Below, piece by piece: positions 2,419 through 56,969 of a DNA stretch of 64,000 nucleotides. The DNA is from Hypoxylon rubiginosum (Eukaryota > Ascomycota > Sordariomycetes > Xylariales > Hypoxylaceae), in the NCBI GenBank assembly GCA_902806565.1, contig CADCXA010000030.1, forward strand, positions 806,001 to 870,000, given 5' to 3'. The notes under the pieces are model-generated. The model was not told the origin of the DNA and did no database searches. It worked only from the letters and a program-made list of their open reading frames with translations. Every line of letters starts with the position of its first letter. The stretch's first letter is position 1. Both the position numbers and the translations under genes were made by a program.

Positions 2419-3054
2419 ATGCAGCAATATATCCGTCTCGCAGCCCTAGCGGCCTTCCTACTCTGCCAGACCAGGCTTGCAGCTTCATACGACGCTCCGC
2501 ACATCTGGCCCCTCGACCCCTGGAAGATCAACAGCCTGCAGGTCACGGCCCCGGCCCCGGGCCACCCGGGAACCGTCATGAGCATCGCGCTGGCCATCGA
2601 GAACCCGAACACGGTGTCGGCGGGGCCGGCGCCCCACGCGTCCGGCGGCGGGTACCTGTCCTTCGCGCCGAGCGCCGCCAACTGCACCACCTCGGCGGCG
2701 GCGTCCGGCGGCGCCCTCGTCTACACGCAGGCGCGCTGCGCCGAGACGACCGAGTTCTCGTACGGCGCGTTCGCCGTCGGCGGCGTGGTCGCGGACCCGC
2801 GCCGCTTCGAGCTCGCCTTTAACCTGAACTACAACGTCACGCGCTGGGGCAGCGTGTGGTACAAGGTCTACGACGCCGCGGCGCGCTTCGAGGTCGGGGT
2901 CAACCTCGCCGAGGGCGTATATGATAGAGAGAGCGGCACGTACTCGTACGAGCTGATGAGGAACAGCACGCCGGTCTTGGTACGCCCTACGATGACGGAG
3001 TGTAAGGGCTACTGCCAGATGCCTCCTACCAACGCGAGCGCGGGTGCTGCGTAG
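2419..3054 (+). CDS. Small secreted protein, uncharacterised
   Basis: A single exon encodes 211 residues. The first ~22 residues form a clear signal peptide (hydrophobic LAALAAFLL core, small residues LAAS near the cleavage site), so the product should enter the secretory pathway. The mature part carries four cysteines (in NCTT, ARC and ECKGYC), consistent with two disulphides, and N-glycosylation sequons NCT, NVT, NST and NAS. No transmembrane or GPI-type tail is seen. The gene is much more GC-rich than its flanks, which supports it being genuinely coding. I do not recognise a family. It has the profile of a secreted cysteine-containing fungal protein of the effector-candidate size class, but nothing in the sequence establishes a function. 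The start is chosen because the signal peptide begins at this Met. Confidence 0.8.
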   Translation: MQQYIRLAALAAFLLCQTRLAASYDAPHIWPLDPWKINSLQVTAPAPGHPGTVMSIALAIENPNTVSAGPAPHASGGGYLSFAPSAANCTTSAAASGGALVYTQARCAETTEFSYGAFAVGGVVADPRRFELAFNLNYNVTRWGSVWYKVYDAAARFEVGVNLAEGVYDRESGTYSYELMRNSTPVLVRPTMTECKGYCQMPPTNASAGAA

Positions 3055-28071: not shown

Positions 28072-28264
28072 TGACAGTCAGTGATCGAACATTCGAGACA
28101 TCCGACCACGATCTACAGTATGAAGACAGCTCGTTCAAAGAAACCATATCGCTTTCAGTTGCAAGAAAGTATGGAAGTTAGCAAAGATGGGAGTTTACTT
28201 GTTAGGTGAAGAGATGGAGATTTTGGCAGGTATCTTATGTTCTTAATGAGGAGATGATTATGGA

Positions 28265-28448
28265 CCGTTGGCGGTTTACAAAAAACCGCCAAAGTGACAA
28301 AAGTGCCAAGTCCGCCAAATCCGCCAAACCTGCCAAACCTGCAAAATGAGCCAAAACCATAATATATATAACTCCCACATTATATAAATACACTAAGTTC
28401 TTAATAAATTAATATACTTTATTAATTTAAATTATAAAAAATATATAA
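28265..28448 (+). repeat. Left terminal inverted repeat (184 bp), less mutated copy
   Basis: Matches the reverse complement of 56779-56962 across its whole length without gaps. The outermost ~21 bases match poorly. The inner 158 have 20 differences, all transitions. It keeps GC-rich words such as CCGCCAAA that are partly erased in the right copy. The outer tip forms a perfect 10-bp hairpin (28268-28277 with 28283-28292). Confidence 0.85.
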
Positions 28449-28534
28449 ATCAATAATAATATATAAAATATAATAAAAAAATTAAAATAAAAATTATTAA
28501 TTATAATAATAATTTAATTATAATATATTTTTAA

Positions 28535-28800
28535 TTTAATAATAATTTAATAATAATTTATTAATAATTAAATAATAACTTAATAATAACCAAATAATAA
28601 TTTAATAATAATTAAATAATAACTTAATAATAATTTAATAATTATTTAATAATAATTTAATAATAATTTAATAATAATTTAATAATAATTTAATAATAAC
28701 TTAATAATAATTTAATAATAATTTAATAATAATTTAATAATAGTTTAATAATAACTTAATAATATTTTAATTATAACTTAATAATAACTAAATAATTATT
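28535..28800. repeat. 11-bp subterminal tandem array, left
   Basis: Around two dozen units of an 11-bp motif (AATAATAATTT with C for T in some units) follow the left TIR. The period is not a multiple of three, so it is probably non-coding. Confidence 0.75.
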
Positions 28801-31800
28801 ATATTATAAGAAAAATAAATAAATATATATTTTTTTAATATTAATTAATATATTTATAAATTATATATTAAGTTTTTTTTATTTTATAAGTTATTATTAT
28901 AATTTTAACAGCTAATTAAAACCTTAATTATATTACACTTTTTAATTTTATTTTTTATTATTTTATTTTATTATTTTTTATTTAATTATAATATAATTAA
29001 TATTAAAAATTTATATAAAATAAACTTTATTTAATAATATTAATTATTAAACTTTTTATTTAATTTTAATAAAAAATTTTTAATTTTATAAAAAATCTTT
29101 CATTTATATATATAAATATAATTAATATAAAACTAAATATAATAAAAAAGAAAATAAAAAACCTAGAAAATATAATTTAAAATATAACTTTATATATAAT
29201 TAAATATTTAAAATTAACCTTTAAAAAGAAAATAAAACTATAAAATATTTATATATTAAAAATATAACTAAATAATTTTCAATTAAATATAATTATAAAA
29301 ACCTACTATTTATTATTAAAATTTTTATAAAACCAATTAATTTATAACTTTTTTTTATTTATAAAAAAAACTTATAAAAAAGTATAATAATTTTAATTTA
29401 AAATAACATATTAAAAATATTATAAGTAACTATATATAAATTATAAAATAAATATAATTTATATTTATAAATAATTACTAGGATTTATTATTTAATTTTT
29501 AATTTTTATTAATTTATAAAAAAAGCTTATAAAAAAACTTAGTTATTTTAAAACTAAAACATAAAAATTATAATTTTATATATTAGTTTATATATATTTA
29601 ATATTTAATTATTTAATTAATTTATAGTTATTTAACCTTTAAATATTTTTTTATATAAATAAACTAAATTAAATAAGTTTTTTTATATTAAATTTCTATT
29701 ATTATAACCTTAAAAAAAATTATTTAAATAAAAACAAATACTTTTTATAACCGTTAAAATTATAAAAAAAAAAATATAATTAAAAAAAACTAAATATTAA
29801 ATAACTATTTATAATTATTATAACTTATAGTTATATAATTTTAAAATATATATTTTAATAAAAATAAATAATAAATATTAATTTATATATATAATTATAA
29901 AATAATATATTTATATTTATATATATATATATAAAAAAAAACTACTTTTATTTTTTATTTTTATATATTTTTATTTTTCTTTTCTTTTTTTTTTTTTTTT
30001 TTAATTATTATATCTTTTTATTTTTTTTTTACTTGTTTTTTTTTTATCTTTTACTACTTATTTATTTTATTTTTTTTTAGATTTTTTCTTTTTTTTACTT
30101 TTATTATAATTTAACTAAATATATTTATTATAAAATATTTTACTTATTATATAAATAAACCTTTTAAAAATTTTAAAATTTTAAATAATATATATTAAAA
30201 CTAAAAATTTTTTTCTTTTTATTATAAATATTATTATATATATAATTAATATAATAATATACTTTTTTTTTAATAACTTATTTTATAAAATAAAAATATA
30301 CTTTTATATTATAATTTTTTTTTAAATAAGTTTAACGAAATTTACTAACTATATTAATAAATAAAATCCGTTAAAAACTTTAAAATTTCTAATCCTTAAA
30401 AAAATATATATTATTTTTATTATTAAACTAAAAATAGCGATAATAAAAAAAACCTAACTAAATATTAAAAAACTAAGTTAAAATATTTATTAAATTTTTT
30501 TAAAATAATAAAAATATTATTTTATAAAAAAGTATTAATATTATATTAAAAACCATTAAATTAAATAACTTAATATTTTTAATTTATTTATTAAAATTTA
30601 AGTTAAAATTTAAATAATAATAATTAATATATATTATTTAATATAAATAATTATTTTATTTAATTATAATTTTAATTAATATTAAATATTATTAATTTAT
30701 AATAAATAATATATATTATTTTAAAGATTTTTTTAAAAGATTTTTTAATTTTTTTTTTATTAAAACCAACCTTATTTTAACCATCCCATTTATTAAAAAT
30801 ACACTTTTTTTAAAAAAAAACTAAACTTTTTTTTTAATATAAAATTTAAATAAGTTATAAAAACTTATTTTTTTTTAATAAAAATTATTTTTATAGTTAA
30901 TATTATTTTTTAAAACTTATAATTTAACAAATTTAATTTTAATATTTATTAGTTATAGTTTAATAGTTAATAAATTTAAACTTATATTATTTTTTTTATT
31001 TATTTATATTTTATAAAAAAAATCTTTTTTTAAAATTAAAAACTATTATTAATTTAATTAAAAGCTTTAAAACATTTAGTTTAATATTAGATTTTATATA
31101 AATTTTAACTTTTTTACTAGTAATATAAATTAAAATAAAATAAAAATAAAATAAAAAATAAAATAAAAATAAAATAAAAGATAAAATAAAAAATATTTAT
31201 ATTTTATTTCTATATTTTAATTTAATTATAATTAATTGTTTTTTATAAAATTAAAAAAAAAAATACTAATAATATTTTTTTAATATTTATTTAAATATAT
31301 ATTTATATAATTAATTATAATATATATTTTTTTTTTAATTAACTTTTTATTTTATTTATTTTTTTTATAATAAAATATATTATTATAATATATTTTAAAA
31401 ACGTTAATTAAAAAAATATAAGTTATATTTCTTTTTATTTATTAAGTTTTTTTATTTTTTATTTAATTTTTTTATTTATTATTTTATTTTTAAAAAATTT
31501 TATATATTTTTTTTAATTTTAATTATTTTTTTTACTTTTAATTAATATATATTATTATATTTTAACATTTATATAAACTTTATTAAAATTTATTATTAAT
31601 TAAAATTAACTTTTTATTATTATATATTATTTATTTTTATAATAATTTTATTAAATAAATATATATAACTTTATTAAAACTTATATAAAATATAAAAAAG
31701 TTTATAAACAATTTAAAATAATTTTTAATTTTTATATAAATAAATTTAATTATATATATTAACTATATTATTTTTTAAAACGCTATTAACTTTTAAAAAG

Positions 31801-34800
31801 AAATTAATTTAAATATATTTTACTAGTTTAAATATATTTAAAAATCTAAAATTAATATAAATAAAAAACCTAATTAATAACCATTAAAACCTAATAATTT
31901 TTTTTAATTATTTTTAATTTTAAATTAATAACTTTTATATTTTTTTTATAAAATATAATTAAATTCTATTAAATATTATAAAACTTAATTACGTAATAAT
32001 AAATTATTATAAACTAATATTTATAATATTAATATTATAAATAAATAATATAATTTTTATAATATATTTTATTAATTTAATAACGTTTTTTATTAATAAT
32101 TTAACTTATTTTCATATTTTAAAAAAAAGAAACTTATTTTATATTTAATTGTTAATATTTAAAATAATAGTAAATATTTAATTTATAATAATTTCTAATT
32201 TTTTTAACCTTTTTTTAAAAAAAATAATAATAAGCTTTTATTTTATTATAAGTTTAATATTCTTATTAAATATTAATAATAAAATACTATAAATTAATAT
32301 TAATATAAAAATAACTATAAATACACCATCTATTTTTAGTTATTTTATAATAATTATTATAAAAATTAAATACTATTATTTAAATCTAGATTTTTATTAT
32401 ATATTTAATTAATAAAAGTATTTTTTTTTATTATTATTATAATAATAATTAATATATACATTATTTAAATATTAAAATAAAATAATATAATATTAAAATA
32501 TATTATTTTTTACTTGACATTAAATATAACTTTATTTTAAAAATAAAATATTATTATATATTTATATATAAATAACTAAAAATAATTAAAATTTTAATTA
32601 ACTTAAAAAACCTTTTTTAATTTATTTTTATAATTAATAATCGATATTATATTTAGCTTGATTTTTTTAAAATAATAACTTTAACTTATATATTATATAT
32701 TTAAAATAATAATTTATTTTAAAAAAACCTATTAAATTATTAACAAAATTTATATATTAAAATATAAGGTTTTAAATATATTTTTATTTATTATTATCTA
32801 AATAATAATAATATTAATTTTTATATTTTTAATTTTAATTAAAACTTATTATATAAACTTATTTAATTTTATATTATTTACTAGTAAAAACCAATTATTA
32901 TATTTACTAACATATAAAATATATTAAAATAAATAAAATAAAATTAAAAGATAATTTATTTATATTTAATTTAAAATTATAAAAAAGTTTTAATTAAGTT
33001 TAAAAAAGTTAAAATAAATTATATTAAATACTAATTAACTATATAAATTAAAACTAATATATTTATTATTATTATTATTATTAACCTTATTTTTATTTAT
33101 TAGTTTTTATAATTGTTTTTTTAATTTAATAATAATAATTATTATAATAAAAACTTAATAAATAAATTATATTTATAATAAAAAACTAAAAAAAATAAAA
33201 CCAAAAAAGCTTTTAAAAACTAAAAAACCTATTAAAACTAAAAAATTCCTTTTAAAGTTTAAAAAAAGTAAAAAAGCCTTTTAATATTATATAAAAAAAA
33301 TTAATAAATTTAAGTTAATTAGAAATTAATGTTAATTAAGTTACGTGTTAATATTATTTAAAAAAAAAAAAAAAAAACATTTAAATATTATACGGAATTA
33401 AATACACGCTATATTTAAAAAGTTATAAAATATAAAAAAATTAAAAAAAAAAATATAAATAAGTTTAAAAAAGTTATATAATTTTTAAAAATAAATATAA
33501 ACGCATTTTTAACACTTTTTACCATTTATAAAAAACACTAAAAATACGTTTATATTTTTTAATAAAAAATTATTATAATATAACTTAAAAATAATATTTA
33601 ATAAATTATTTAATTTTTATTTAATACTATAAATATTAAAACTATTTATATAAATATTTTATATTTTTATTAAATATTAATTTTTAATAAATATTATATT
33701 TATTATAACTTTAATTTTAAAATTATTTTTAATTTATAATATTAAAACCTTTTTTTTTTTTATAATAAATTTATTTTATATTTTATATAAGTTTTTACTA
33801 AACTTTTATTTTAAAAAATCTATATAATTGGTAAATATTATTAATATTAAAATTACTAAATTAAAATTTAATTAATTTAATTTTATTATAAAACTAATAA
33901 TTAATATTAAATATTTTAGCTATTTTAAATATATAAAACTATTTTTATTTTTCCCCACTTTAAATTATAATAATATTAACTATAACTTTATAATATATAC
34001 TTATTATATTATAATTAAAAACATTTAATTTTATAATAATATATTTAATAAAAATATTTTATATTTTTTATACTTTAAAAACCTTTAAAATATTAATCTT
34101 ATTTTAATTATTATATTATTAGTAACTAATAATATTATTATTTAAAGGACTTATTATTTTTATATTCTTAGTTATATAAATTTATTCTTATATTTATTTT
34201 ATATTTCTAGGTTTTAATTATAATAAATTTAAAACTATATATTATAATATTTTTTTTTAATAATTAATAATTTCCTTATATTTTTAATACTTTTTTATTA
34301 TATCTTATTATACCTTTAAATAACGTTTTTATTAACCCTTTTAATATATTAATAAAAACCACCTTAATATTTTTTTTTTCTACCATTTAATAAACTATTA
34401 TTATACCTATATTTATTTTTTTATTAATTAATTTAATTAATTATATAACTATTATTAACTATAATAAAACTTACTAAATTATATAATATAATATAAAAAT
34501 AAAAACAATATATTTAATATTAAAAAAAACTAAATTATAATTTAATATTAACTATATAAAATAATATATAAAAATACCAAATAATAATAAATTTATTAAT
34601 AATTTAAATAATATACTTTTTTTTTATAATAATATTTATTATATATTTAATTATAAAAAGCTTATTATTATTTTAAAAAAACTAAATAATTAATATATTT
34701 TTATTTTTAAAATTATTAAATTAAATATAAAATATTTATATAATATATATATAATATATTATAATTATATCTACCAGGATTTTTTAAACATTAAAATTAA

Positions 34801-37800
34801 ATTTCTTTTTAATTATTTTATATAAAACATTTTTTATTTAAAAACCATATATATTATTTTTATATTATATTTTTATTATTTAATATAAGTTTATAATAAT
34901 AATAAAAACATATATAAAATTTAAAATAAATTTATATTAAAGTTTAAAAAAAACTATAATTAATTTATAAATAAAAATAACAAACATATATATAGTTTAA
35001 ATTTAACTAATAATAATAATTATTTTATTTAAAACGATAAAACATTAATATCTAGTAAATTTAAATTTAAATTTAATAATTATTAAAAACATTTATATAA
35101 TTTAAACGTTTATAAAAAGCGTTTTTTTAACTTAAAAAACAATAAAAATTATAAAAAATATAAATAAATTTAAAAATATAATAATAAATTTAATAATATT
35201 AATATTAAAATAAATATAAATTTTAATATTACTTACTTTATATTTAATAGTATTATAAATAAATTTTAAAAACTAAATAAAAATATTACTTTTTTTAACT
35301 ATAATATTTTAAAAGAAAAAAATATATAAAAAAAAATATATTCTTAAAATTTTACTTTAATAAATTAAACCTAAAAAAACAAATTATATATATAACCTTT
35401 TATAAAATTTAAATTTATTAACCAAAACATTATATATTAAATATAACTAAATAAATAATTATTATATTAAAAAAATCTTAAAATAACATATAATTAATAT
35501 AAATATATATATAAAATCACTTTTATATTAATTAATATAACTAATAAATATAATAAATATAATAATTAATAACTTTTAATTAGTTACTATTTATAATAAT
35601 TATAATATTTATTATTATAAAAAAAAAAAATTATTAACAAATAAACTAATAATAATAAAAACCATATAAATTTATATAAAAATTAAAATAAATTAATATA
35701 ACTTTTAATATAAATAAACTTTTAATAAATATATAAATAAATTAATTTATTATATTAATATTTAATTTATTTATATAAAAAATATCTACTTAAACTAAAA
35801 ATAAATATACTTATATTTTTAACTTAATGTTTAGTTATTTACCATTTATTAAATAATGTAAATAAGTTATATTTTTTTTTTTAAACTTCTTAATAACAGT
35901 TATTAAACTTTTATTTAACTATTATTATTAAGTTATTATTAATTTATTTTTTAACTTTTATTTAACTATTATTAATCTAGTTTTTATATTTTTAATAGTT
36001 TTGTTATTTTTACTAATTATTAAACCACTTTTAAAACCGTTATTATTATTTTTAATAATATCAGCCCCGGTTTTATTATTTTTAACTTTAATCTTAATTT
36101 CTAATAAAAGTAATAAGCTTATAAAATAATAATTATTATTATCTTTAAATTTATTATTATTTATTATAACACTTAATTATTAAAAAGTTATTAATTAGTT
36201 ATTTAATTAGGTAATAATTATATTAAATTTATTTTAACTATTTATTAATATATAATTAACATTATTTATTAAACATAGTTTAATAATAAAATTTATCGGT
36301 ATTATTAACACTTAAAAATATAAAAAATTACTAGATTTAAACCTTTTTAACTTAGTAAAATTAATATTATAATTAACCTTAACTAAGTTATTATTTAACG
36401 TTAATTAAAAGCTAATAATATAATTATTATAATTAATTTTATTTAAGTTATTATTTAACGTTAATTAAATTTATATTTAAAACGTTAATATTTAATTAAA
36501 CGTTAAAATTATTTCATTTTTATTATCCTTTTTTTTTTTTTTAATCTTTACTTTTTTAAACATCTTAATATAATATAATAACTATTATTTTTTAATTGTT
36601 TAAATAATAAGTTTATTATTTTTTAAATATTTAAATAAAATATTATTTATTTTAAATATATAAAACTTATTTAATAATAAAAAATCTTCTCTTATTATAT
36701 TATAAAAACTTTATTTATATATTTAATTTATTAACTAATTAATATAAAGCTAAAAATATAAATATTTTTATATTTTAACTTTAAATTAGTTTATAATTAA
36801 ACTTATTATAACGATTTTAAATTTTTATAAATTATAATTAATTAATACCAGTAAATTAAATTAAATAATAATTAAATAATAACTAAATAATAATTAAATA
36901 ATAGTTTAATAATAATTTAATAATAGTTTATTTAAATTTATAATAAAATTATATATTATATTAACCTTTTATAAAAATAAATTTATATAAAACATTATAT
37001 TATTTAGTTAATATTTATTTTACTAATATTTAAAAAATATTTTATAAGTTTTTAATAATAAATTTTTTAATTAATATAAAAAAAACTAATAATAAATTAA
37101 TTATATTTATTAACTGTTATTTAACTTTAGTTAAACTATTATTTAGTTATAGTTTATATATTTATTTTAATATAAAAATCGTGTTAATATTTTTAAAATT
37201 ATAATTATTAATTAAAATCCTTTATATAATTATTAATATATTTACATTTTCTTTAATTTTAAAAATAATATTATATATAATATTAAATTTAAATATAATT
37301 TTAATTATATATTTTATAATCTATTAATTTTTAAATATTAATTAAACTTTAATTTAACTTATATATTATTATTATATTAAAAAATTAAAACTTAATTATT
37401 AAAAAACATTATAATAATTAATATATTATTTATTATTAAGTTATTATAATATTTACTAATATTTTAACTTATAAATATATTTAAAAATTTATAACTTTTT
37501 TTAATATACTTTTTTTACTTTAAAAAGCTAATTAAATATTACTAATTAATAATAAAACCAATATTAACTAACTTATAAAAACCTAACCAATAAAATTTTT
37601 ATTTAAAATAAATTTTGTTTTTATTAATTATAACTAAAAAATAACCAAGCCAGCGTTAAATAATAATTTAATAATAGTTATATAACAGTTTAATAATAAT
37701 CTAAAAAATTTTAAATATTATAAAAATATTTATAATTAAAATAAAGGTTTTAAATAATTAAAATATTTTTTATATTTATTAATTTTATTAATATTTAATT

Positions 37801-40800
37801 TTTAAACATATAAAAATTAATATATATATTAAAAAAAAATATTATATTATTTTTATTATTATTAGTTTTAATAAATAACTTAAATATTATTATTTTAATA
37901 TACTAGAAATATTTATAATATATTTTTAAAATTATAAATTAAATATTAATATATTAAGTTTTTATTAAATAAAAAAATATATTAAAAATAAAAAGTAATT
38001 TATATTAAAATATAATAAATTTATAACTATTTTTAAATTATATTTAAATTATTAATAAGTTATTATTAAACTGTTACTTAGTTATTATTAAGTTATTTTT
38101 ATTAAATATTATTATAAATAATAATTTTATTTTTTATATTATTTATTTATATTATATTATATATTTATTACTATATATATTTATTAATTATAAATACTGG
38201 TTTTAAATACTGTTATTTCATTTATTTTAAAGCTATTTATTGTTTTTAAACATTGTTTTTTTTTTATTATTAAACTAATAACTTTACTTTTAGTTTTTAT
38301 ATTATTATATAATATTATTATTTATATATAACTAAAAAATAATTTATTTACTTAGTTAAAATTATTATTTAATAATAACTAACCTCATTTATTTTAATTA
38401 ACTAAATAATTATAGATTTATAATAAAAATATATATAAAACCAATTTATTAAATCTTTTAAATATTATAAACTTTATTTAAATTTTTATACTTATTTAAT
38501 TTATTATATATATATATTATTTTTAAATTTTAAATTTATTTTTTATATATTTATTTAATAATTATATTAATAATTTATTATTATATTATTATATCGCTTT
38601 TTTTAATAAATTTATATTAATATTTATAACTATATATTAATATTATTTTAACTATTTTAATTTAAAACTAATATTAAATTTTAATATTTTTAATAATAAT
38701 AATATCTATTATATTATAATATACTATACTATATATATAATAACTAAGAATATTTAGGTTTTTAATAAAAAAAAAATATAAATAAATTTTAATAAAATAT
38801 TTTTTTTTTTAAAATTATAATACCAGCTTTTATAAATATATCTAGGAATAATATTTTATTTACAAGTTATTATTATTTTTATATTTTAAGTTATAAATAA
38901 AAAAACTATATATATTAATATTATAATTTTATATAAATAATATCCTTTAATTATTATTTATAATTTTACTAATTAACTTAAAAATACAAGATATTAATAT
39001 TAAAAAATCAATTAATTAATAATAATATAATAATATAAAATAATAAACTAATATAAATTTACTTAAAATTTAAAAATATAATATTTAATTTAATATAATA
39101 ATAATTATTTATAAATTATTATTACTTATAAAAAAGCCTTTAATAATATTTAAACCTTATTATTTTTATATATTAATTAATATTATACTTATTAAAAATA
39201 AAAATTATCCTTAGATTTTTTTAAAAATAATAATAATTATTATTATTATTATTTAACGTTTTTAAGTTTTATTAATAAATTTAACTAATAATAAGTTAAC
39301 TTTTTATTTATAAATATATATATTATATACTAATAATTAATTAATTATAATAATTTTATTAGATTTTAAAATAATTTTTAAAATATTAATAATATTAATT
39401 TTATTTAATTTTAATTTTATTTTAAAGTTAAAGTTTATTTTTATTACTAATATATTATTATTTTTTATAGTAAAATACCTTTAAATTTAAAAAGCAGGTT
39501 TATTTATTTAATAACTAGTAAATATTTTTTAAATTAAAAATAAATTAAAATTATTATTATTAATTAATTTAAAAATTCCTTTTTATATTAACTTTTTTAA
39601 TAAAATATATATTATATTAAAATAACTATAACTTTTATTAATATAATTAATAATTTTATTTAAATTAAATAAAACCTTTTAATAAATATTAATAAAAATA
39701 TATATATTAAGTTATTATATAATATATTATTTTACTTTTAAACTTAAAAATTAATAATTAAAATTAATTTAATATAAATAATTAACTTAATAAAAATAAT
39801 TAATTTAAAAATAACTAATTTAATAATAATTAACTTAAAAATAACTAACTTAAAAAAATTAACGTTTTTAATATAAATATAATAAAAAATAAAAAATAAT
39901 AAACTTTTTATAGTTTATAAATATATAATATAAACATTATAATATAAACCTTATATATATTATTAATTAAAAAACTTTTAATTTTTAATTAAAATATATA
40001 AAAATTAGTTAATATATCTTATATTTTCATAAAATTATTTAATAATTAAAATTAAATAAAAACTTTTTTTTTTTTTTTAAAATATTTTATAAACATTATA
40101 ATTTAATTACTACTAATTATTTATTATTTATTATTATATAATTTAATAATAACATATTTTTAAAAAAAATAATCTAAATATATATAATACTTATTTAATT
40201 TAATATCTATATAACTTACTTTTAATTATATTAAATAATTTTTCCAATAAATAATAAATAAATTTACATTACTTAAACATTTAAATAAATATTTTTTTAT
40301 TTTTATTAATATAATATTAAATAGTAAATATATAAATTTTAAATTAAAATAAAAATAATAATAAGTCCCGTAATATTTATTATATTTTTATTTTTTTTTT
40401 ATAACTGTTATTAATATCTTAATAAAAATGTTTATTATAAATAAAATATTTTATTTTATTATTAAAACTGTTATATTAATAAATTTATTTATAGTTTATA
40501 CTTTATATTTTATTATAAAATCTAGTTTATATATAATTAACTATAATTAAAATATCAAATTTATTATTATTAAACTTATTATTAAAACTTATATTAAAAA
40601 AAAAAAAAAAATTAAAAAAATATAAAAAAAATGTAAAATAATATTAAAATATAAAAATAATAAATTATAATTAAATAATTATAATAATAAAAAATTAAAT
40701 AAATTAGCTAGATATTAAAATATTTTAAAAATTAAATATTTAAATTAATATTATTATATATATAATTATTAACTTATATATTTTTATATACTTTTAATAA

Positions 40801-43800: not shown

Positions 43801-45093
43801 CTTAGTTATTTTTATAAAAATATTTTTTATATTATAATAAAAAAAATAATACTAATAAAATGTTAGTTATTATTTATAATATTATTATATAATTAATAAC
43901 TATTAATAAAATATAGCTTCTTTTTTTTACTTAATAAATAATATTAAAAATTATTATATATAAATTTTTATATTTTTTTTTTTTTATTAAAATAAAAACA
44001 TCGATATAATAAATATAAAAAAAAGTAACATTGTTTTATATTTACTGTTATATAATATAAAAACATGTATTTATTTTATTAAAAATAAAGTTAAATATAA
44101 TAATATTTAATTTAAGTTTATTAACACTTAATATATTTTATAATTAATTATTAAATATTTTTATTAAGTTAATATATATTATTAAACTGGTGATAATTTA
44201 GTTTTTTTTAATTTAATTAATAAAACACTTATTAAAACCGTTATTTTTTAATTTTATAAAAAACTAAATAAATAGGATTTTTTTATTATATATAATTTTA
44301 ATAAATATATATATAAATATATTATTTTTATTAAGTTTTAACTATAATATATATATTATAATTTTATATATTAACGATTTTAAAATAATATTAAATATTA
44401 ATATAAAAAGTTTTTATAAATTAAACTATGTTTTTCTAGTAATTTTATTAAAAAAAGAAAAAATACGCTTAAATATAAATAAATTTAAAACCTTTTTAAT
44501 TAAATTTTAATTTATATAAATATAATTATTAAATATTATATTTTAATAAGTTTTTTAAATAACAGCTTTTTTTATTATAATATTTATTTTTATATTTTTA
44601 TTTTACCTTTTTTATTAATTATTTATTTAATTTAAATTACTATTTAATTTAAGTTTTTTAAATATAAGTTTTTTAATTAATATTATTTCTTTAAATTTAA
44701 TTGCTTTTATTTTATAGTGTATTTTTAATAATAGTTTTTTAAATTAATTATATATTTATTTAGTTTTTATAATAATATTTAGGGTTATTATTAATATATT
44801 ATAATTATTTTTACTAAAAAACTTATTATTAAAAATAATATTATTAGGTTTAAATTTTAATTACTAAAAAAAAACATTAAATGTTTTATTTATATTAGAT
44901 TTTTATGTTTTTTTTATATACTTAGTTTATTTTATAATAAATTTAAAAGTTATAATATGTTAAAAAAATAAAATATACTAAAAAAATAAAGATTTAATAC
45001 TCCGGATTTTAATTATATTATTAAATAATATAAAAAAAAGTTTATTATTAAATAATAAAATAAAAAGGTAATTATTAAATAATAAAATAAAAA

Positions 45094-45195
45094 GTTTTTT
45101 ATTAAACTTTAAATTAAATATATTATATTTAAATAAAATAAAAAGTTTTTTATTAAACTTTAAATTAAATACGTTATATTTAAATAAAATGGATA
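45094..45195. repeat. 51-bp tandem duplication in the AT block
   Basis: Two adjacent copies (45094-45144 and 45145-45195) starting at GTTTTTTATT are nearly identical apart from a few bases. The period, 51, is a multiple of three. Confidence 0.7.
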
Positions 45196-45639
45196 ACTTT
45201 TTTTTAAATAATAATAAAACAATGGTTAATTTTTAATTTAATTTAAATAATAATAATAAAAACGGTATTATTAAAAAAAAACTTATTAATATAAAATTAA
45301 TTTTAAAGAAAACATTGTTTTTAAATTATATATTAAATGTTTTTACGTTTAAAAAAAAGATAAAGCCAAGTTAATGTTTTAAAGTGATATTAAATAATAT
45401 AATATAAATATTTTAAATGTTTAAAACACCGTGAATTTAAAAAAAATAAAATGTATAATCTAGTTAAATAAATTAAAATAAAATGTTATAATATATTTTA
45501 TATATATTAATATATATTAATATAATAATATTTAATTTTTAGTTTATATATTAAATTACTTATATTTTATAAAGTTCTTTTGATTTTTAAGATTAAAGTT
45601 TTATTATTAATTTAATTAATTAAAGTTTTTTTATAGAAT

Positions 45640-45850
45640 ATAAATTAATTTTATTTAAACTATATAATTTTTTATTAAAGAATAAGTTAGTTTTTTTTAG
45701 TTTTTTTATAATAAATAAACTAACTTTATTTAAACTATATAATTTTTTAATAAAAAACAGGTTAAGCTTTTTTAGTGTATTATATAATTTTTTTAAAAAA
45801 AACGGATCGTTTTTATTTTTTAAACTATATAATTTTTTAAGTGATAAATC
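45640..45850. repeat. Repeats at 75/45/45-bp spacing in the AT block
   Basis: The word TATATAATTTTT, usually preceded by AAAC, recurs at 45661, 45736, 45781 and 45826, giving intervals of 75, 45 and 45. All are multiples of 15. The surrounding bases are also similar between copies. Confidence 0.65.
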
Positions 45851-47442
45851 TTTTTTTTACTGCGAGAAAATTACGGTTTAAAAAGATTTTATAACTAATA
45901 AAAAAAAATATTTTTATAAATATAATTAAAATAAAACATATATTTATAATCTTTTATATATTAAAGTTATAAAGTGCTAGAAAATGTATGGATTTTTATA
46001 TTTTAAATTAAAAATACAGCTTTTAAAAATAAAAATTAAATGTTTTTATAATAATAAAAGATATAATAAAAAATTTAAAAAGCTAAGCTAGTTAATAAAA
46101 TAAATGTGGTAATTTATTTTATATTAATAATATAAAATAAAGTAAAAAAAATAATAGTTAATTAAAATGTTATTAATATTAAAAAACTAAAAAAATATTT
46201 AAGAAAATTTTATAAAAACTAAAAAAGGCTAATAAATATAATAAGATTTAATAAAAATAAAGTTATATAATAAACTAATAATATAATTAAATAATAAAAC
46301 TTAAATATAAAATATTTAATAATTATATAATATTCTTTATTAATATAATTATAAAAAAAAAAAAGGAATATTTTAAAGTTAAAAATAAAAGTAATTAACG
46401 CTTATTAAAATTATAATTTTATTAAAAACAAAAACCAAATAATTAAATTTCTATTAATATATTTATTTTTTTTATTACGGTATTAATTAATTAAAAATAT
46501 TTATATTACTTTTTATATTAAAACCAGGAAAAGTAAAATTAATTAATTTAAAAATATATAAAACCACGGATATATTAATATATTTATTTTTTTTATAAAC
46601 TTTTTTAATAATATTATATACTAATAAAAGTTTTATTTAAAAGTAATAACTTTATTTTAAACATATATTTTTATATTATAATAATATATTTATAATTATT
46701 AGATACTTTTTAAATTTTTCACTTTTTATATAATTATAAAATAATTAATTGATTTTTTTTTTTTTTTAAAAAATGATTTATTTTATAGTAATATTTAATA
46801 TATTATATTATATATATAAAATTTTATATATAATAACGTTTTTTAAACTATATTTATATAGTTAATTAAGCCTTAAATATTAATATATATTTTAAAAAAA
46901 AAAAAAATTCGTAGATTATAAAATTTTAACAATAAAAAATAAATGATTTTTATATCTTTTAAATTATAAAAAAATATTTATTATATTTTTAATAATAAAA
47001 GTAATTAATTAAATTAAAATAAATATATAAAAAAACATAGCCTTATTAAATTATATTTATATATTTATATTAAATTAAATTATTAAATAAATATATAAAA
47101 TATAATAAAAGCTTTTTTTTTTTTTAATTAACATTATAAATTCTTTCCTTAAATATTTTATTTTAAATTAAATTTATATTTTTTTTATTTTATTTTTATA
47201 ATAAATATTAATAATTAGCCAGATTTTATTATTATAATAAATAATTACTAAGTTTTATTATAAAAATTTATAAAATATATTAATTTACTTATTATATAAT
47301 AAAATAATAAAATCTTAAATATACTTTATATTATAAATAATTAAATATAAACTTTAAACGTATAAATATAAAATATAAATATATATAATATTTATTTAAA
47401 ACTATAATTAATTAATTAATAAATTTAAAGTTATAAATTATT

Positions 47443-47592
47443 ATATTAAAACTATAAACCATTATATAATAAACAGGTTTTAAGCTTTAAATAATTATAT
47501 TAAAGTTATAAATATTTATATTAAAATTATAAACTATTATATAATAAATGGGTTTTAAATTTTAAATAATTATATTATAAATAAAATCGTGA
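47443..47592. repeat. 75-bp tandem duplication in the AT block
   Basis: Copies start at 47443 and 47518 with the shared word ATATTAAAA and differ mostly by C/T and G/A changes. Confidence 0.65.
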
Positions 47593-49367
47593 TATTAAAT
47601 AAATAAATAAATACATGTTTTAAAAAGTTAAAAATACAATTAATAACATTATAAATAAAATAATACTTTTTATTAATAATAACTAAGTTTTAATATATAA
47701 TATAAATAAAAATATAAATAATATAATATACTTAATAAACAATAAAATAAATATATTTACTATTAATTTATAATCTCTTTAAACGTTAAAAATTAATATT
47801 TTAATTAAAAACTTTTTATAAATAATATTAATAATTAATAATTTAACTGGTAAATATATATATATATATTATATTTATTAATATTAAAAGTATTTATTAT
47901 AAAAATAAAATTTAACCACCTTTTTAAATTATTAAACTTAGATTTTTATAACATATTTTCTATTAAATATAAAAAGTTTATTTAAATATATAAAATAATT
48001 ATCCTAGGTTTAAAATATATAACTTAATTTATAAAAAAAAAAAAAAGATATTTTTAAAGATATTTAAAAGTTATAAAAGTTATAAAAAAGTAATTTAAAA
48101 TTTTATATTTTTTATAAATATCTGTAAATAATAAGTAAAAAATTTAAATAAATTAAAAAACATTTATTTTATAGTTACTATAAATAGTTTTATCTTAATA
48201 TTATTTATATTATTTATTATATTATTTTATATGGTTTTATATATTATTTTTTATATTATTCCTTATATATTTATATATAGTTTTTAACGTGGTTTTTTAA
48301 TTGTTTTTATTATTTTAATATTAAATAAATTATATTTTAAATATTTAAGTGGGTTAAATAAACTTATATTTTCCTAGTAAAAAACATGGTAAAAGAAATT
48401 TAAAAAATAAAATAAAATAAAAATAAAGTTATAATATTTTAAATAATTAACTATATAATTTATCTATATAAGCGCGGATTAAAAATTAATTTCTAGTAAA
48501 CTTTTATTAATAATTTTATAACTAAGCCTTAGCTTTAATTAGTTATTTATTTTTAATCTTTTTATATTTAGTTTTTTTATTTTTAATTATTTTATTTTCA
48601 GTTTTATTATTTTTATTATATTTATTACCGCCGTTTTTATTATTATTATTTTTATTATTATTTTTACTATATTTAATTTAAATAAATATTATATAAATTA
48701 ATCTAGATTTTTAATCTTTAAAATTAATTAATATTTATTAATATAATTATTTTTTTTTATTTTAAATTAAGAAATTATATAGTAATTTATTATTATAATA
48801 TAAATTTTATACAAATAAAATTAACGGTTTTATAAAACTAATGTATTTTATATTATTACATAATAAATAAAATAATTTACTAAATTAAAAAAAAAATATA
48901 TTTTAATTATTAATATTTAAAAGTTTAATAAATATATATAAATATAAACTAGTAATTTTTTTTTATATTATGTTTTTATATATAAATAAAATAATTATAT
49001 TAAAAAAAAACCTAACGTTTAATATTATTAAATGTTATATTTATAATTTAAAATTAAATTATATTATAAACTATTACTAATTTAACTAATTAACATAAAA
49101 AAGTTTTTATATTAAATCCGGTTTTTTAATATAATAAAAACTTTATATTTAATTATAAAATAGTTATTTATAATTAAATTAATAAACTTAATAAATAATT
49201 AAATAATTTTATGTTTTTAAGTAAGTTTTTTATAAAACTATAAATAATTAATTAATATAAACGTTTTAAAAAAGAATCTTTTAATAAATAAATTTTTAAT
49301 AAAAATATTTAATTTTATATTTTATTTTTTTGTTAATTATAAATAAATAAACGTTTTTTTCTTTTTT

Positions 49368-49512
49368 ATTTTCTTTTTTATTTTTTCTTTTACCTTTTTT
49401 TTTATCTTTTTCTCTATTTTTTTTTTTATTTTTTCTTTTATTTTCTTTTTTATTTTTTTTTTTACCTCCTTTTTTATTTCTTTTTTTACCTTTTTTTTTA
49501 CTTTTTCCTTTA
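49368..49512. repeat. 12-bp periodic polypyrimidine minisatellite
   Basis: In an otherwise C/T tract, A occurs exactly every 12 bases at 49368, 49380, 49392 and so on to 49512: 13 positions with no slip. Read on the minus strand each unit is T followed by eleven purines. The period equals four codons. RIP spares C before T, which may be why this tract kept its pattern. Confidence 0.85.
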
Positions 49513-52492
49513 CTTTTTTTACTTATTTATAACTTTGTTAATAATATAAAACTAATAATAAAATAGGTTTTTTTTTTTAATAAAAAAATAATATAAATAA
49601 TAACTTTAATATAAAAAACTTTTAACGTTTTTACTTACTTTAAAAAGCTTATTTTATTTTTAATAAAAACGGGTTTAAAACTAATAACCATATAATAATT
49701 TATTTTAAAATTTCTTATTTTTTTTTATATATTATTATATAAACTTTAAAAATTTTCTTTTTTATATTTATTATTTTAAATTAAAATATTATATTTTTAT
49801 CGTAAAAATTACCAAGTATTATTAATTTATAGTTAAAAAGTTTTATTATATAAAAACGTCCTTTAATTTAAATTTAAAAATATTAAATAAACTAAAAATA
49901 CCTAGCTTTTTAAAAATAAAAAAGTAATTTAAAATTAAGTTTATAATAAATATTATTATAAAATTAATAATATATAAGTTAATTATTATTTTTAAAAAAA
50001 ACTTAAACTTAATATTTTATTAAAATTTATATGTTAATTAAATAAAAAATTATATAAATTATATAAACTTATTATTAATTATTTTACAAATTAATATATA
50101 TAATGTTTTTTTACTGGTTTTTATAATAAAAAAAATATAAAAAATAATTTTTATTTATAAAGTTATTTAACTTTAAAATTAGTTATATATTAAATATTTT
50201 ACTTTTTTATATACAGTTATTTTTTCTTTTAAAACATTAAATATATATATGGTATTTTTATTAGTAATATTAAAATTCTTAAAATAATTATATTATAATA
50301 TACTTTTATTTAATATATTTTTAACTAATATATTTTTAACTAATATATTTTAAATTATTTTACTTTTTTATAAATTAATAAAAAATTATATAAATATATT
50401 TAAATTTATTATATAAATTATATTATTTATATTATTTATAATATAAAAAATAATAAATATATTAAATTAAATATTAAATATAATATATTACTTATATTTT
50501 TTTTTTTATTAATTAATAACTATAATATAAAATTATAAATAATAATATAAATATATTAAATAAAAGTTTTTATTAGAAAATTTATAAATGTTTTTATAAA
50601 AATAATTTAATTAACACTTATATTTATTAAATATTACTTATTAATTATTTTCTAAATAATAATTTTAATGTAAAAACACTATAAAAAATAAAAATATTAA
50701 AGTTATTATAAATAAAAATATAATATAAAAAAGTTAGTAACTATATAATTAAAAAGGTTTAATAAAAACAATAATTACTTTTTTTTACTTTTTTTTATAT
50801 TTTTTTATAAATGGTTTTTTATTATAATTAAAAGATAATTAAGTTACTTATATTATATAATAATTTATTAAGTTATATGTTTTTATTTATAAAATCACCA
50901 TATTAAAAATAAAAAGTTACATATATTTAAAATTAAAAAAACAAAGTTAAAAAGCTAGTAATTAATAATTTCATTTATTTTAATTAATTGTATTTTATTA
51001 ATTATTTAAATAAAAATATTTTTTTTAAATATAAGATTATTATATAATGTTTTATTTTTTTAATAAGTTAATAATAATATATATAATATATTAATACTTA
51101 GATAGTTTTTAAAATAAATTAAATATAAATTAAAAAATATATAAAAAATTAATATATAAAAATTAATATATATAATTATAATTAATTAAAAACATATAAC
51201 TTAATTAAATAAGTTTAAAAATAATATTAAAAAACCTATAAAAAAGGTTTTTTATTATTAAAAAAAAATAATAATTTAATTTAAACTGTTAGTAAGAATT
51301 TTATTTTTATTATAATAAAAAATATATTTTTATTTTAAGCCGTTAAAAAGGATTTTATTTACATTATAATAAAAAGTAAATTTTTAGTTTATAACCTTTT
51401 AAATAAAAAGTTTTTAATAGTTTATATTAAAATAAACTGTTTATTATAACTAAGAATATAAATAAACGCCTTAATGTTAAATATATATTAAAAATATCTT
51501 TTTTAATATAATTAAAAATAACTTATTATATTAATTTATTAAAACCTAAGAAATTTCTTTTTATTATATAATAATAATTAATAAAAATGTTTAATATATT
51601 ATTTTTTAAATTTTAAAGTTTTATTAAAAATTTTAAATATAATTTTTAAAAGTTATAAAATAGTAAAATAACAACGGAAATTTATTACTTTAATTTCCTA
51701 GAAAACTAATAATAAGTAAATTTATTTAAATTAATAAAAAAATTTAAACCAGTTTATAATAATATTAAAAAACCATTTTATATGTTTAATTATAAAGTTA
51801 ATATTAGTAGAAAACTTATTAATATAAAATAAAAACTTGTTTATATTTTTTAATTGGTTTTTTAAGTTAGTTAAACCTATAAATTTAACGTATATTAAAA
51901 ATGTTTTTATTTTATTTTATAGATATTAAAATTAGTTATTTAAAAATACTAGTTTATTAATTAAACTTAATAAATTACTAAGAAAATTTCCTGTGGTTAA
52001 TTTTATATACTTAGTTATTTACTTTTTTAAATTATTTAATAAAATATATTTTATTATATTATTAATATTAATATAAAGGTTTTTTAACGCTAAAAACCTT
52101 ATTAAAAAAATATTTTATAAATGTTATATGTTATTTAAAATTTAAAGTAAAATCTAATGGTTATTACTTATATAATTATTTGTTATATTTATTATAATAA
52201 TTTAATTAATATAAAAAAAAAAAAAAAAATTAGTTAAAACTTAAAACTTTTTTAAAGTTTTATATTTATAAAAAATAAAAAATAACTTATAAAGAAAAAT
52301 AAATAATAATATATAATATATAAAATAAATTAAAATAAGTAAGGTTTTTTAATAAAATAATTAATAGATTAATTTATATATAATTTAATATTATTAATAT
52401 ATAATTAATATTTTATATTTAAAATATTTAAAGTTTAAATATTAATATATTATTTTTTATTACTTTTTAATTATATAAAAATTAAATTGTTT

Positions 52493-53485
52493 AATAATAT
52501 TAATAAAATTATTTATCTTAAAATAAAATTTATTAAAAATTTTAATAAAAGTATAATATTTATATTAATATATAAATTTTTTAATAATATTTATTTAAAT
52601 ATAATTATAATTTTAATGAATTTAAAAAAATTATCATTTAATAATATTATTAAAATTAATTAATTAAAGTTTAAGTTTTTTAAAAGTTTTAATAAAAATA
52701 TAATATTTATATAATTTTATAAATTTTTAAATTATATTTAAATAAAAGTAACTTTAGTAAATACAAGGAAATTCTTATTTAATAATATTAAAAAAAAAAA
52801 TTATTTAAACCTGGTATTATTTAAAAACTTAAATAAAAATATAATATTTATATTAATTTATAAACTTTTAACTGATATTTAAATAAATATAATTTTATTA
52901 AATTCCAGTTTATTTTTATTTAATAATATTAAAAAAATTAATTATCTAAAAATATAATTCTTTAGAAATTATAATAAAAACATAATGTTTTTATTAGTTA
53001 AAAAATTTTAAAATGATATTTAATTAAATATAATTTAAATTAAATTAAAAATATTTTTATTTAATAATATTAAAAAAATTAATTTCCTAAAAATATAATT
53101 TTTTAAAAATTATAATAAAACTATAATATTTATATTAGCTAAAGAATTTTAAAGTAATATTTAATTAAATATAACTTTAATTAATAAAAGGAGATTTTTA
53201 TTTATTAATATAAAAAAAACTAATTATTTAAAATTATAATTCTTTAAAAATTTTATAAAAACTATTATATTTATATTATTTTATAAACTTTTTATTAATA
53301 TTTAATTTAATATAACCTTATTAAATTTAAAAAAATTATTATTTAATAATATTAAAAAAATTAGTTATCCCGTTAAAAAATTATTAAAAAACTTTAATAA
53401 AAATATAGTATTTATATAAATATATAAACCTTTTAACGGTATTTAAATTAATAAAAACTTAATAAAAATAAAATTAATATTAATA
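52493..53485. repeat. 141-bp degenerate tandem array (at least seven units)
   Basis: Units begin with AATAATATTA-like words at 52493, 52640, 52781, 52922, 53063, 53204 and 53345. The first interval is 147 and the next five are exactly 141. A weaker eighth start is near 53482 and another possible unit precedes 52493. The period is 47 codons with no indels across five intervals, so it may be a fossil of a repeat protein, but direction and family are unreadable. Confidence 0.75.
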
Positions 53486-56400
53486 ATATTTAAATAAATA
53501 TATTTACGTTTTTTAAAATAAAGTTATTTTATTTTAAAATTATTAATTATTTAATATAAAAGTATTTTAATATTAACTTAATATTATATTTCTTTTAATA
53601 TAAACTGGTATAATAAAATACGGTATAATATAATTTAATAAAATATAAAAAAAAAATAAAAAAATAAATATAAGATTATTTTTTTTATATAAATTTTTAT
53701 AATAAAACCATTTTTAATTATTTATAACTTATTAAAAAAGTTAATATAAGTTATATTTTTTTTATTAAAATTCGTTTAAAAAATAATATAAAGCGGAAAA
53801 TTATTAATTTAATTAAATATAAATAATATAAAAATAATATAATTAAATTTTATTATAATTATAAATTTAAATTAAATATATTAATAAACATAAAAAAAAA
53901 TCTAATATATAAACTAATACGTATAATTATAAAATAACTTATTTTTAAAAATATAATTTAATTTAAATATATTTAAATATACCTAGAAGTTATAAATTAT
54001 TAATATAATTAAAAAAAAGTTTATTATAATAAAAAGTAAAAACTTTTTTTAGTTTTAAAATTAAATTAATTATAAAATATAAATAAATATTAAAAACTTT
54101 ATTTTATTAAATTTAAAATTTATATAAATATCGATATTTATTTTTATAAAATTATATAATATAATATTAATAAATTTAATAGTTTATTTATAAATATAAT
54201 TAACTAATATTTTAAAATAATTATTACGCTGGGATTTTAATTTTAAATAACTTATATAAATTATAAAATCGAAACTTTTTTTATAGTTTAAATATAATAT
54301 TAATTAGTTATATAAATTAAGTTTTAAATAACTATATAGTTTATAAATAAAATAAAAATAAAATATTTATAAAATGTATATATTTTAAAGTTATATAAGT
54401 TTTATATAAGTTAATATAATATAAAAATTAAATAATAATGGTTTTTTTTTTAAATTAATATAATTAATTATTAGATTATAAATAAATTAATATTTATATT
54501 ATTAAATGTTAATATTAATATTATATTATTAATAATATTTTAAAAGTTTATATAATTTAAATTTATTTAAAAAATATTAGTTTTATATTTAAATTATAAT
54601 ATATATTATTTTTAGAAATTTATTATAATAAAAAATAACTTAATATATTTATTTATAGAATATTTATATTATTAAATAATAGGAAAATAAAGTTACTAAC
54701 TATGTTAATAAATTTTAAATAAACTTAAATAATATAAAAATAAAAAATTATATTATAAACTTAATTTTTAATTTTTTGTTATTAAAATTAATATATTAAT
54801 TAAAAAAGCTAATATATAAATATAATTTTAATAGTTTTTTAGTTTTAAAAATATAATAGATTTATAATAAATAACTAGTGTAACATTTATTAAAGCTTAT
54901 TAAAAATAAGGATTATTTATATTTTAATAAATATATTAATTTAAAAAATTATTTAAAATAATATAAAAAGAATAAAAAAAAGCTGGTATTAATATTTAAT
55001 AAGTTTTTATATAACGAGATAATATAATATACGGCTTAATTAAATAAAATAAAAAAATAAATAAAAGTAAAATAAATATAATTATATAGTTATTTATTAA
55101 ATATCTTAAAAATAAAAAAATAAATTTAAAAAATATTAAAAATTTATATATTATTTTTTATAGTAATTATAAATTATTTATCTTTTAAATATATATTTAT
55201 AACGTAAAGCTGTTGGGGCGGTAAAAATAATTATTTTAATTATTAATTATTTTTTATTTAAATAAATATTTATTTAATTTATTAGATATTATTTTATTAT
55301 TTAAGGTACTAGTATTTAAATATATATTTAAATAAATAAGTATTAAATAAATAAATATTAAATAATAAGAATTATTATTTTTATTTATTAAAAGTTTTAA
55401 TTTTATTAGTTTTTTAAAACTTATATAATTTCTTTTAATTTATTATAATAAAAGTTCTTTTTTATATTATATTTAATATTATAATAAATAAAAATAATTT
55501 AGTTTTTATAAATTTCTTTAAAAATATATTATATATAAAACTATAATTAAATTATTTACTTTAAATTATAAAAAGAAAATTTTATTTTAAATATATTTTA
55601 AATATTTTATAAATTAAATTATAAAAATATATATAATAATAATTTAATTGTTTTTATAAGCTTTTTTTAATAAGCTTATATTTAATATATAAAATTTAAA
55701 ATATTATTTAAGTTATTATTAGTTTGTTTTTTATAATAATTTATATTAATTTTTTTAAAATTAAGGTTTTTTAAACGTTGGTTATTATAATGTTAATATA
55801 TAAGTTTAAAAACCTTTTATATTTATTAAAATTAAAGTTTTATTATAAAAACCTAGCTTTTATTATTTAAAAAGTTATAACTTTTAAAATAATAATATTA
55901 AATGTTTATATTATTAAAAATATTAAAAATAAATATAATAAGTTTTTTTACTTAATAAGCTTTTTTATTTATTATTCTTATATATATAAAAATATTTATA
56001 ATTATTAAATTTATCGCTTTTTATATAATAATATTTTAGTTTTTTTTATTATTTAAACGGTTTTATAATAATATTATTATTTTATAATATTAATATTCTT
56101 ATTAATAAAATATTTTATAATAATATCTTATATAATATTTAATATTTTTTTTTATTTAATACTTATTTAAATAAAAGATAAATTAAATATAAATAATACT
56201 TATTTATAATAATTATTTTATTTATATTCGCAAGTTTATATTTTAAAATTTTAAGCTTTTATAATTAATTATTTTTAAATAAATTTTTAAAGTTATAATA
56301 AAAACTTTAATTTATTTTAATTAGTAAGTTATATAAGTTATAAAAAAAAGTTAATTAATTTTTTAATATATAGTTTTTAAATTTAATTATATATATATAT

Positions 56401-56565
56401 AAAACTTATTATTTAAATAATAAAACTATAAATTAAAAAATTATTATATTATTTTAATATTAAAACTTTATATATAAATAAACTTAGTTTATATTTTTTT
56501 TAATATTAATAAGTTAAACTTTTTATTTAAATTATAAAAATTATATATTTTTTATTTAAATTTTA

Positions 56566-56705
56566 AATATAATTTAATAATAATTTAATTATAATTTAAT
56601 AATAATTTAATTATAATTTAATAATAACTTAATTATAATTTAATAATAATTTAATTATAACTTAATAATAACTTAATAATAATTTAATAACAGTTTTATA
56701 ATAAT
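56566..56705. repeat. 11-bp subterminal tandem array, right
   Basis: The same type of 11-bp unit, partly alternating AATAATAATTT and AATTATAATTT. It reads in the same orientation on the plus strand as the left array, unlike the inverted TIRs. A smaller patch of similar units lies at about 36857-36930. Confidence 0.7.
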
Positions 56706-56778
56706 TTAAATATTATTATAAATATTTTATAAATATAATAAACTTAATTTTAAGTTTAAATATAATTATAATTAATTA

Positions 56779-56962
56779 TTATATATTTTTTATAATTTAA
56801 ATTAATAAAATATATTAATTTATTAAGAACCTAATATATTTATATAATATAAGAATTATATATATTATAATTTTAACTTATTTTACAAGTTTGGCAAGTT
56901 TGGCGGATTTAACGAACTTGGCACTTTTGTTACTTTGGCGGTTTAGCGTAAATTTATAGCGG
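56779..56962 (-). repeat. Right terminal inverted repeat (184 bp), more mutated copy
   Basis: Inverted partner of 28265-28448. In 19 of the 20 inner differences this copy carries T for C or A for G relative to the left copy, so it is the more heavily RIP-altered one. Confidence 0.85.
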
Positions 56963-56969
56963 AGTTATG

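Follow-up and report, generated by a model that had tools for sequence, protein, structure and literature searches.

The window considered here is a 64,000-nucleotide stretch of contig C30 (CADCXA010000030.1) of the ascomycete Hypoxylon rubiginosum, whose genome assembly comprises 48.3 Mb in 70 contigs. The AT-rich block at window positions 28263 to 56964 is a single 28,702-bp unit and one complete copy of an element that recurs across this genome. Very probably, the element is a family of giant 28.7-kb terminal-inverted-repeat DNA transposons, with this block as one full-length copy. An original prediction, made from the letters of the window alone, had proposed one very large transposable unit, and the other copies bear this out, as they share its ends and length and carry 5-bp duplications of their own.

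Both edges of the block had been placed exactly. GC content falls abruptly from about 0.5 in the flanks to 0.05-0.10 inside the block at either edge, as first described, and position 28263 is the start of the match in all six other complete copies that were fetched whole. Position 56964 is the aligned right end in four of the six; the remaining two right ends (C11:270260 and C31:903884) were placed through the arm search and the end sequences. The ends had been described as a gapless 184-bp inverted repeat. The repeat is real and gapless, with 28275-28448 complementary to 56779-56952 at 87% over 174 nt, but over their outermost 12 nt (GACCGTTGGCGG and CTCCGCTATAAA) the ends do not pair, and the homologous arm is therefore about 172-174 bp long.

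A search of the rest of the genome, as the original prediction had suggested, recovered at least 27 left and at least 34 right arms. By position and strand these form at least 22 complete, correctly oriented pairs rather than independent short repeats. The best 40 of 65 candidates were scored for the left arm, 40 of 920 for the right arm and 40 of 53 for the outer 90 bp of the left arm; the copy counts are therefore lower bounds. Seventeen of the 22 pairs span 28.4-29.2 kb and five span 34.4-45.1 kb (C32:418135-453162, C11:139159-177279, C31:841633-886705, C21:168664-206020, and C41:468278-502677). The longer five, three of them with exact target duplications, suggest later insertions nested inside the element. 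Among the unpaired arms, all five left and 7 of 12 right ones have a contig end within 21 kb on the side towards which the element should extend, and the left arms of the other five right ones were not found among the scored candidates. If contig-end halves belong together there are at least 34 insertions, and otherwise at least 39. A rough estimate from the pair count puts the element at about 2% of the genome. The 12 arms that point to contig ends less than 21 kb away are on C9, C14, C16, C17, C26, C30, C34, C35, C40, and C59, with two each on C34 and C35; running into these ends as they do, they probably mark the element as the cause of a number of assembly breaks.

Six complete copies were fetched whole, in pieces, along with the first 10 kb of two more. 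All six lie at other sites and are collinear with the window element. The main matches, leaving aside the tandem array, have 89-93% identity and are likewise collinear; stretches that do not align reach about 400 bp. The match begins at 28263 in seven of the eight fetched copies; the long match to the eighth (C14) begins at 28542, and the arm of this copy does itself match in the left-arm search.

The 5 bp outside the ends are exact duplications in 15 of the 22 complete copies, differ by one transition in five and by one transversion in one, and show no duplication in one. With ends mispaired between copies, an exact 5-bp match arises once in 462 combinations. The first element base is A instead of G in four copies, and these ends, like the mutated right ends (C11:139159, C31:903884), were placed by register. 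Twenty target sites display no clear common motif. By established transposon biology, the combination of fixed ends and inverted arms with duplications of one fixed length at unrelated sites points to a 5-bp staggered cut by a transposase or integrase.

Erasure by repeat-induced point mutation (RIP), also part of the original prediction, is evident from near transition-only divergence between copies. Pairwise differences among seven copies over about 28.7 kb amount to 2,170-3,076 transitions versus 8-123 transversions; a cluster of transversions near window 47.3-48.3 kb overlies a tandem repeat and is probably in part misalignment. CpA and TpG are depleted in the element (CpA+TpG 340 vs ApC+GpT 1,277), with C-to-T changes on both strands. 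RIP acted on nearly identical copies. Interior GC averages 7.3% per copy, and the share of columns in which any copy has G or C increases from 7.3% (one copy) to 22.8% (seven copies) and is still rising; a Chao-type lower bound from the G/C column counts sets the original GC at 31% or more. Mutation tapers off across the outer 80-180 bp, in keeping with the proximity of a repeat edge. In 12 left ends aligned in register, the outer 80 bp keep 0.90-0.97 of their G/C columns, a share that is about 0.55-0.61 at 81-140 bp and at most 0.25 beyond 180 bp. In six right ends the share is 0.89-1.0 for the outer 70 bp and 0.3-0.7 for positions 81-140.

The interior is RIP-mutated in 13 of 13 insertions inspected, of up to 39, and one more has an insertion-broken arm. 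Of 53 candidates for a less mutated copy, sought through the outer 90 bp of the left arm, 40 were scored, and none of those inspected was such a copy. Two odd matches were opened: the C40 match has 0-6% GC inside, and in the C9 match the arm is broken by an insertion, with AT-rich DNA beyond. In the latter (C9:712915-714914) the right arm is interrupted from about base 285 by some 6 kb of inserted sequence, which begins with TGTTA and is possibly a long terminal repeat (LTR) element; the arm resumes at C9:719011.

Table 1. Features of the element in window coordinates
Feature	Position	Strand	Details
Complete element, RIP-mutated	28263..56964	.	28,702 bp, 7.3% GC
Left target site duplication TTATG	28258..28262	.	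5 bp
Right target site duplication TTATG	56965..56969	.	5 bp
Left terminal arm	28263..28448	+	outer 12 nt specific to left end; ~172-174 bp common with right arm
Right terminal arm	56779..56964	-	
Hairpin at left end, 10-bp stem TTGGCGGTTT / AAACCGCCAA	28268..28292	+	z = -5.05; 0 of 200 shuffles fold equally well
Left subterminal array, degenerate 11-bp repeat (TTTAATAATAA)	28499..28799	+	repeat families D1-D3
Right subterminal array, same 11-bp repeat	56559..56690 (approximate bounds)	+	repeat families D2-D3
Coding-like segment	34580..35308	-	20.6 bits
Coding-like segment	35865..36701	-	25.8 bits
Coding-like segment, longest	44069..45856	-	31.1 bits
Pyrimidine-rich low-complexity tract	49330..49520 (approximate bounds)	.	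origin of chance profile matches
Tandem array, 141-bp (47-codon) unit, coding-like frame	52461..53465	+	repeat family D4; coding segment 52478-53473, 30.1 bits

The ends have further structure (Table 1). The right end of the window copy does not fold; a palindrome (GTAAATTTAC) is found at the right end in 15 of the 22 complete copies, and in the window copy mutation breaks it. In some DNA transposons the transposase binds subterminal repeats similar to the 11-bp arrays. Beside the element, one flanking gene has a 99% identical database protein, and its closest named matches are from H. texense (85%) and H. cercidicola (82%).

RIP makes only transitions, and purine/pyrimidine codons are therefore unchanged and readable without base repair. 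A purine/pyrimidine coding model trained on the host genes of the window marks 21 coding-like segments in the element, 11.9 kb on both strands, versus 1.1-1.4 kb in three shuffles. On this weak coding evidence, the element may hold several genes, probably with introns.

For enzyme searches, purine/pyrimidine codes of the DNA were scored against protein profiles recoded likewise. The profile of the captain, the DUF3435 tyrosine recombinase that moves Starships, gives 345 and 146 bits for intact host captain sequence, and it recovers a captain remnant in a stop-riddled, 10.4% GC locus on C60 at 185, 181, and 109 bits vs 35.6 bits by ordinary search. With polymerase B, one left-out member from each of the 13 groups was recovered at 76-210 bits (13/13; a smaller first set gave 60-244 bits for nine members), and a left-out MULE transposase at 28-30% identity scored 176 bits. 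The polymerase set derives from 149 matched viral stretches, of which 134 (L081-L214) were examined and L215-L229 left out. These yielded 96 open frames of more than 450 residues with the motif, falling into 22 clusters. Twelve clusters were used, with at most 12 members each, and together with four further proteins make up the final 40 viral-contig or metagenome sequences in 13 groups. The ten others were dropped by look as other polymerases or chance motifs, only L139 (PF00136) among them having been run against Pfam. Nine of the sequences used were also run, with five matching PF03175 and four (L131, L172, L180, and L182) failing to do so; this run excluded the three largest groups, and the references include no proven Maverick polymerase.

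Some results count against the method. The left host flank, expected to lack both genes, reaches 55 bits with the captain profile and 57-72 bits with the polymerase profiles, so that composition can raise the background, and one left-out polymerase (L099, 60 bits) falls within this range. A gene split by introns also scores less per piece. The negative results cover captains and polymerases that diverge to a similar degree and have a reading frame largely free of interruptions. Pseudo-proteins built from the purine/pyrimidine codes and searched with standard HMMER recovered 1 of 10 controls (L131) at E <1e-4 and were not used on the element.

All three profiles with left-out or intact controls stay at background on the element: 41 bits for the DUF3435 captain (32 masked; 29-40 reversed), 41 bits for polymerase B (36-43 in the leave-outs; 29.5 masked; 27-37 reversed), and 37-41 bits for the MULE transposase (36-37 masked; 30-38 reversed). 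A single host hAT query, used without a left-out control, gives 53.9 bits (42.3 reversed) and, after masking, 33.5 bits (27.4 reversed). Two host open reading frames (ORFs) bearing rve domains, taken as LTR type, score 39 and 30 bits as single queries; they miss each other, at 23 and 32 bits and 23% identity. After masking, one of them reaches 36.6 bits vs 26.8 in a single reversed control, its match ending in the 141-bp array. Overall, the unmasked scores compare with 30-42 bits for the reversed element, and masked scores of 30-37 bits with 25-38 bits reversed. The top match of most profiles, though not of one rve ORF, is the low-complexity tract near 49.3 kb. A six-frame read-through of the C43 copy, with X at stops, matched no Pfam family in 18 frame stretches. 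PF03175 and PF18758 have no match in the genome itself, but control genomes gave none either; PF11917, PF00665, PF05699, PF10551, and PF05970 have matches elsewhere in the genome.

We note that contigs C10 and C60 carry stop-free captain, hAT, MULE, and several PIF1-like ORFs, the intact captain being at C10:594225-595539, and that none of the arm matches of the element lies there. They are not mutation-free: some matches contain stops, and the C60 captain remnant (C60:62082-62459) sits in 10.4% GC DNA. These contigs may be an accessory chromosome or DNA of another organism.

The block is a real giant terminal-inverted-repeat transposon. As a mechanism, a DDE or retroviral-integrase type enzyme, encoded in the coding-like segments of the element, would have recognized the arms as binding sites, perhaps together with the subterminal 11-bp arrays, and inserted the whole unit through a 5-bp staggered cut at sites of little specificity, in a burst of at least 34 insertions. 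RIP then turned C to T on both strands. Several observations weigh against this account. No transposase was identified in the element with the profiles named above. The first 12 nt differ between its two ends, and dissimilar outer ends are unusual for DDE transposon termini. One complete copy (C67:61725-90633) has no duplication (TTCTG / GCATT), possibly through recombination between copies or misassembly, and the duplication of another (C29:1147865) is off by one transversion. The reversed element still yields 7.4 kb of coding-like sequence, because reversal keeps period-3 signals. Finally, in a host control region that was part of the training data, three of six segments, at 11-12 bits, fit no known gene, and 7 of the 21 element segments are no stronger than these.

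The alternatives differ in what would have moved or assembled the block. An AT isochore built from several separate insertions with chance-matching arms would agree with the premise of the original prediction that fungal AT blocks are often piles of fragments. We regard it as scarcely credible and have rejected it: six other copies at other sites, compared with the window element rather than with an empty-site strain, are collinear over their full length and speak against stepwise growth, and in 20 of the 22 complete copies the duplications are exact or differ by one transition. A giant non-autonomous element, mobilized in trans by the transposase of another locus in the genome, is unlikely, though it deserves more weight. 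It would fit with the lack of a transposase found inside and with the presence of intact ORFs for MULE and hAT on C10 and C60, whereas the 11.9 kb of coding-like segments argue, weakly, that the element has genes of its own. Most MULE families have duplications of more than 5 bp, which weighs against a MULE as the driver. Likewise, hAT families usually make 8-bp duplications, with hAT5 at 5 bp (PMC12730594).

Starship, Maverick/Polinton, and KDZ (Kyakuja-Dileera-Zisupton) elements had been named originally as classes that the length would fit. A Starship moved by its DUF3435 recombinase would account for the giant size, and an intact captain exists in the same genome on C10. Nevertheless, the captain profile gives 41 bits on the element, against 345 and 146 for intact sequence and 185, 181, and 109 for the remnant. 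Long inverted arms and random 5-bp duplications, moreover, are not Starship features. This candidate was rejected as highly improbable. A Maverick/Polinton or Polinton-like provirus, with a retroviral-type integrase, a 5-6 bp duplication, and replication by a protein-primed polymerase B, matches in size, arm length, and duplication. It is nonetheless rather improbable, with the polymerase at background (41 bits; 29.5 masked) compared with 76-210 bits in the leave-outs, although some Polinton-like viruses have no protein-primed polymerase B. With both profiles at background, the element is therefore not a captain-bearing Starship nor, within the reach of the method, a polymerase-bearing Maverick.

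The giant terminal-inverted-repeat transposon might, tentatively and at less than even chance, represent a third class of giant transposon in fungi, alongside captain-driven Starships and polymerase-bearing Mavericks. It would be a multigene terminal-inverted-repeat element of about 29 kb that has dissimilar outer termini (a hairpin at the left) and 5-bp duplications, reaches high copy number in an ascomycete, and is moved by an enzyme of integrase or DDE type so far unconnected with elements this large. Among the literature matches listed, no title or abstract opening describes an element of this sort in Hypoxylaceae. When RIP has erased a long sequence, it is usually dismissed as AT-rich debris; here, one mobile unit remains recognizable, with at least 34 insertions and at least 22 complete copies. 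The purine/pyrimidine reading survives RIP, speaks against two classes of giant element even at about 7% GC, and could be extended to other AT isochores. A testable question follows, namely whether a giant element other than a Starship can amplify to dozens of copies despite very strong RIP.

Among known systems, Starships share with the element a giant size in fungi and, here, a captain elsewhere in the same genome; the element differs in its long inverted arms, its 5-bp duplications at unrelated sites, and the lack of a detected captain. KDZ elements are, similarly, large fungal DNA transposons. KDZ duplications are 7-8 bp in the families described, vs 5 bp here (PMC12730594). The CMCT group (EnSpm, Transib, Plavaka, and kin) makes 2-5 bp duplications, a range that includes that of the element, but has mostly 5'-CA..TG-3' termini, where the element has 5'-GA..AG-3'; IS3EU and hAT5 duplicate 6 and 5 bp, respectively (PMC12730594). 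Ginger2/TDD elements resemble it in arm length (about 50-180 bp) and duplication (4-5 bp; PMC2836005, and for Ginger2 also PMC10045372), but the related Ginger1 elements are far shorter, at 2.6-7 kb (PMC2836005). Maverick/Polinton elements differ from the present one, which has no detected polymerase B and possesses subterminal 11-bp arrays and dissimilar outer 12 nt; one source gives the Polinton duplication as 6 bp (PMC10045372). For Maverick/Polinton elements together with Polinton-like viruses, ranges of 14-40 kb, arms of hundreds of bp, and 5-6 bp duplications are described, and one Polinton-like element, 18.5 kb long, combines 5-nt duplications with arms of 186 and 207 nt that share 89% identity (PMC12220804). 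With its 28.7 kb, shared arms of about 172 bp, and 5-bp duplication, the element falls within these class ranges, and by this comparison its structure is closest to that of Maverick/Polinton-like elements.
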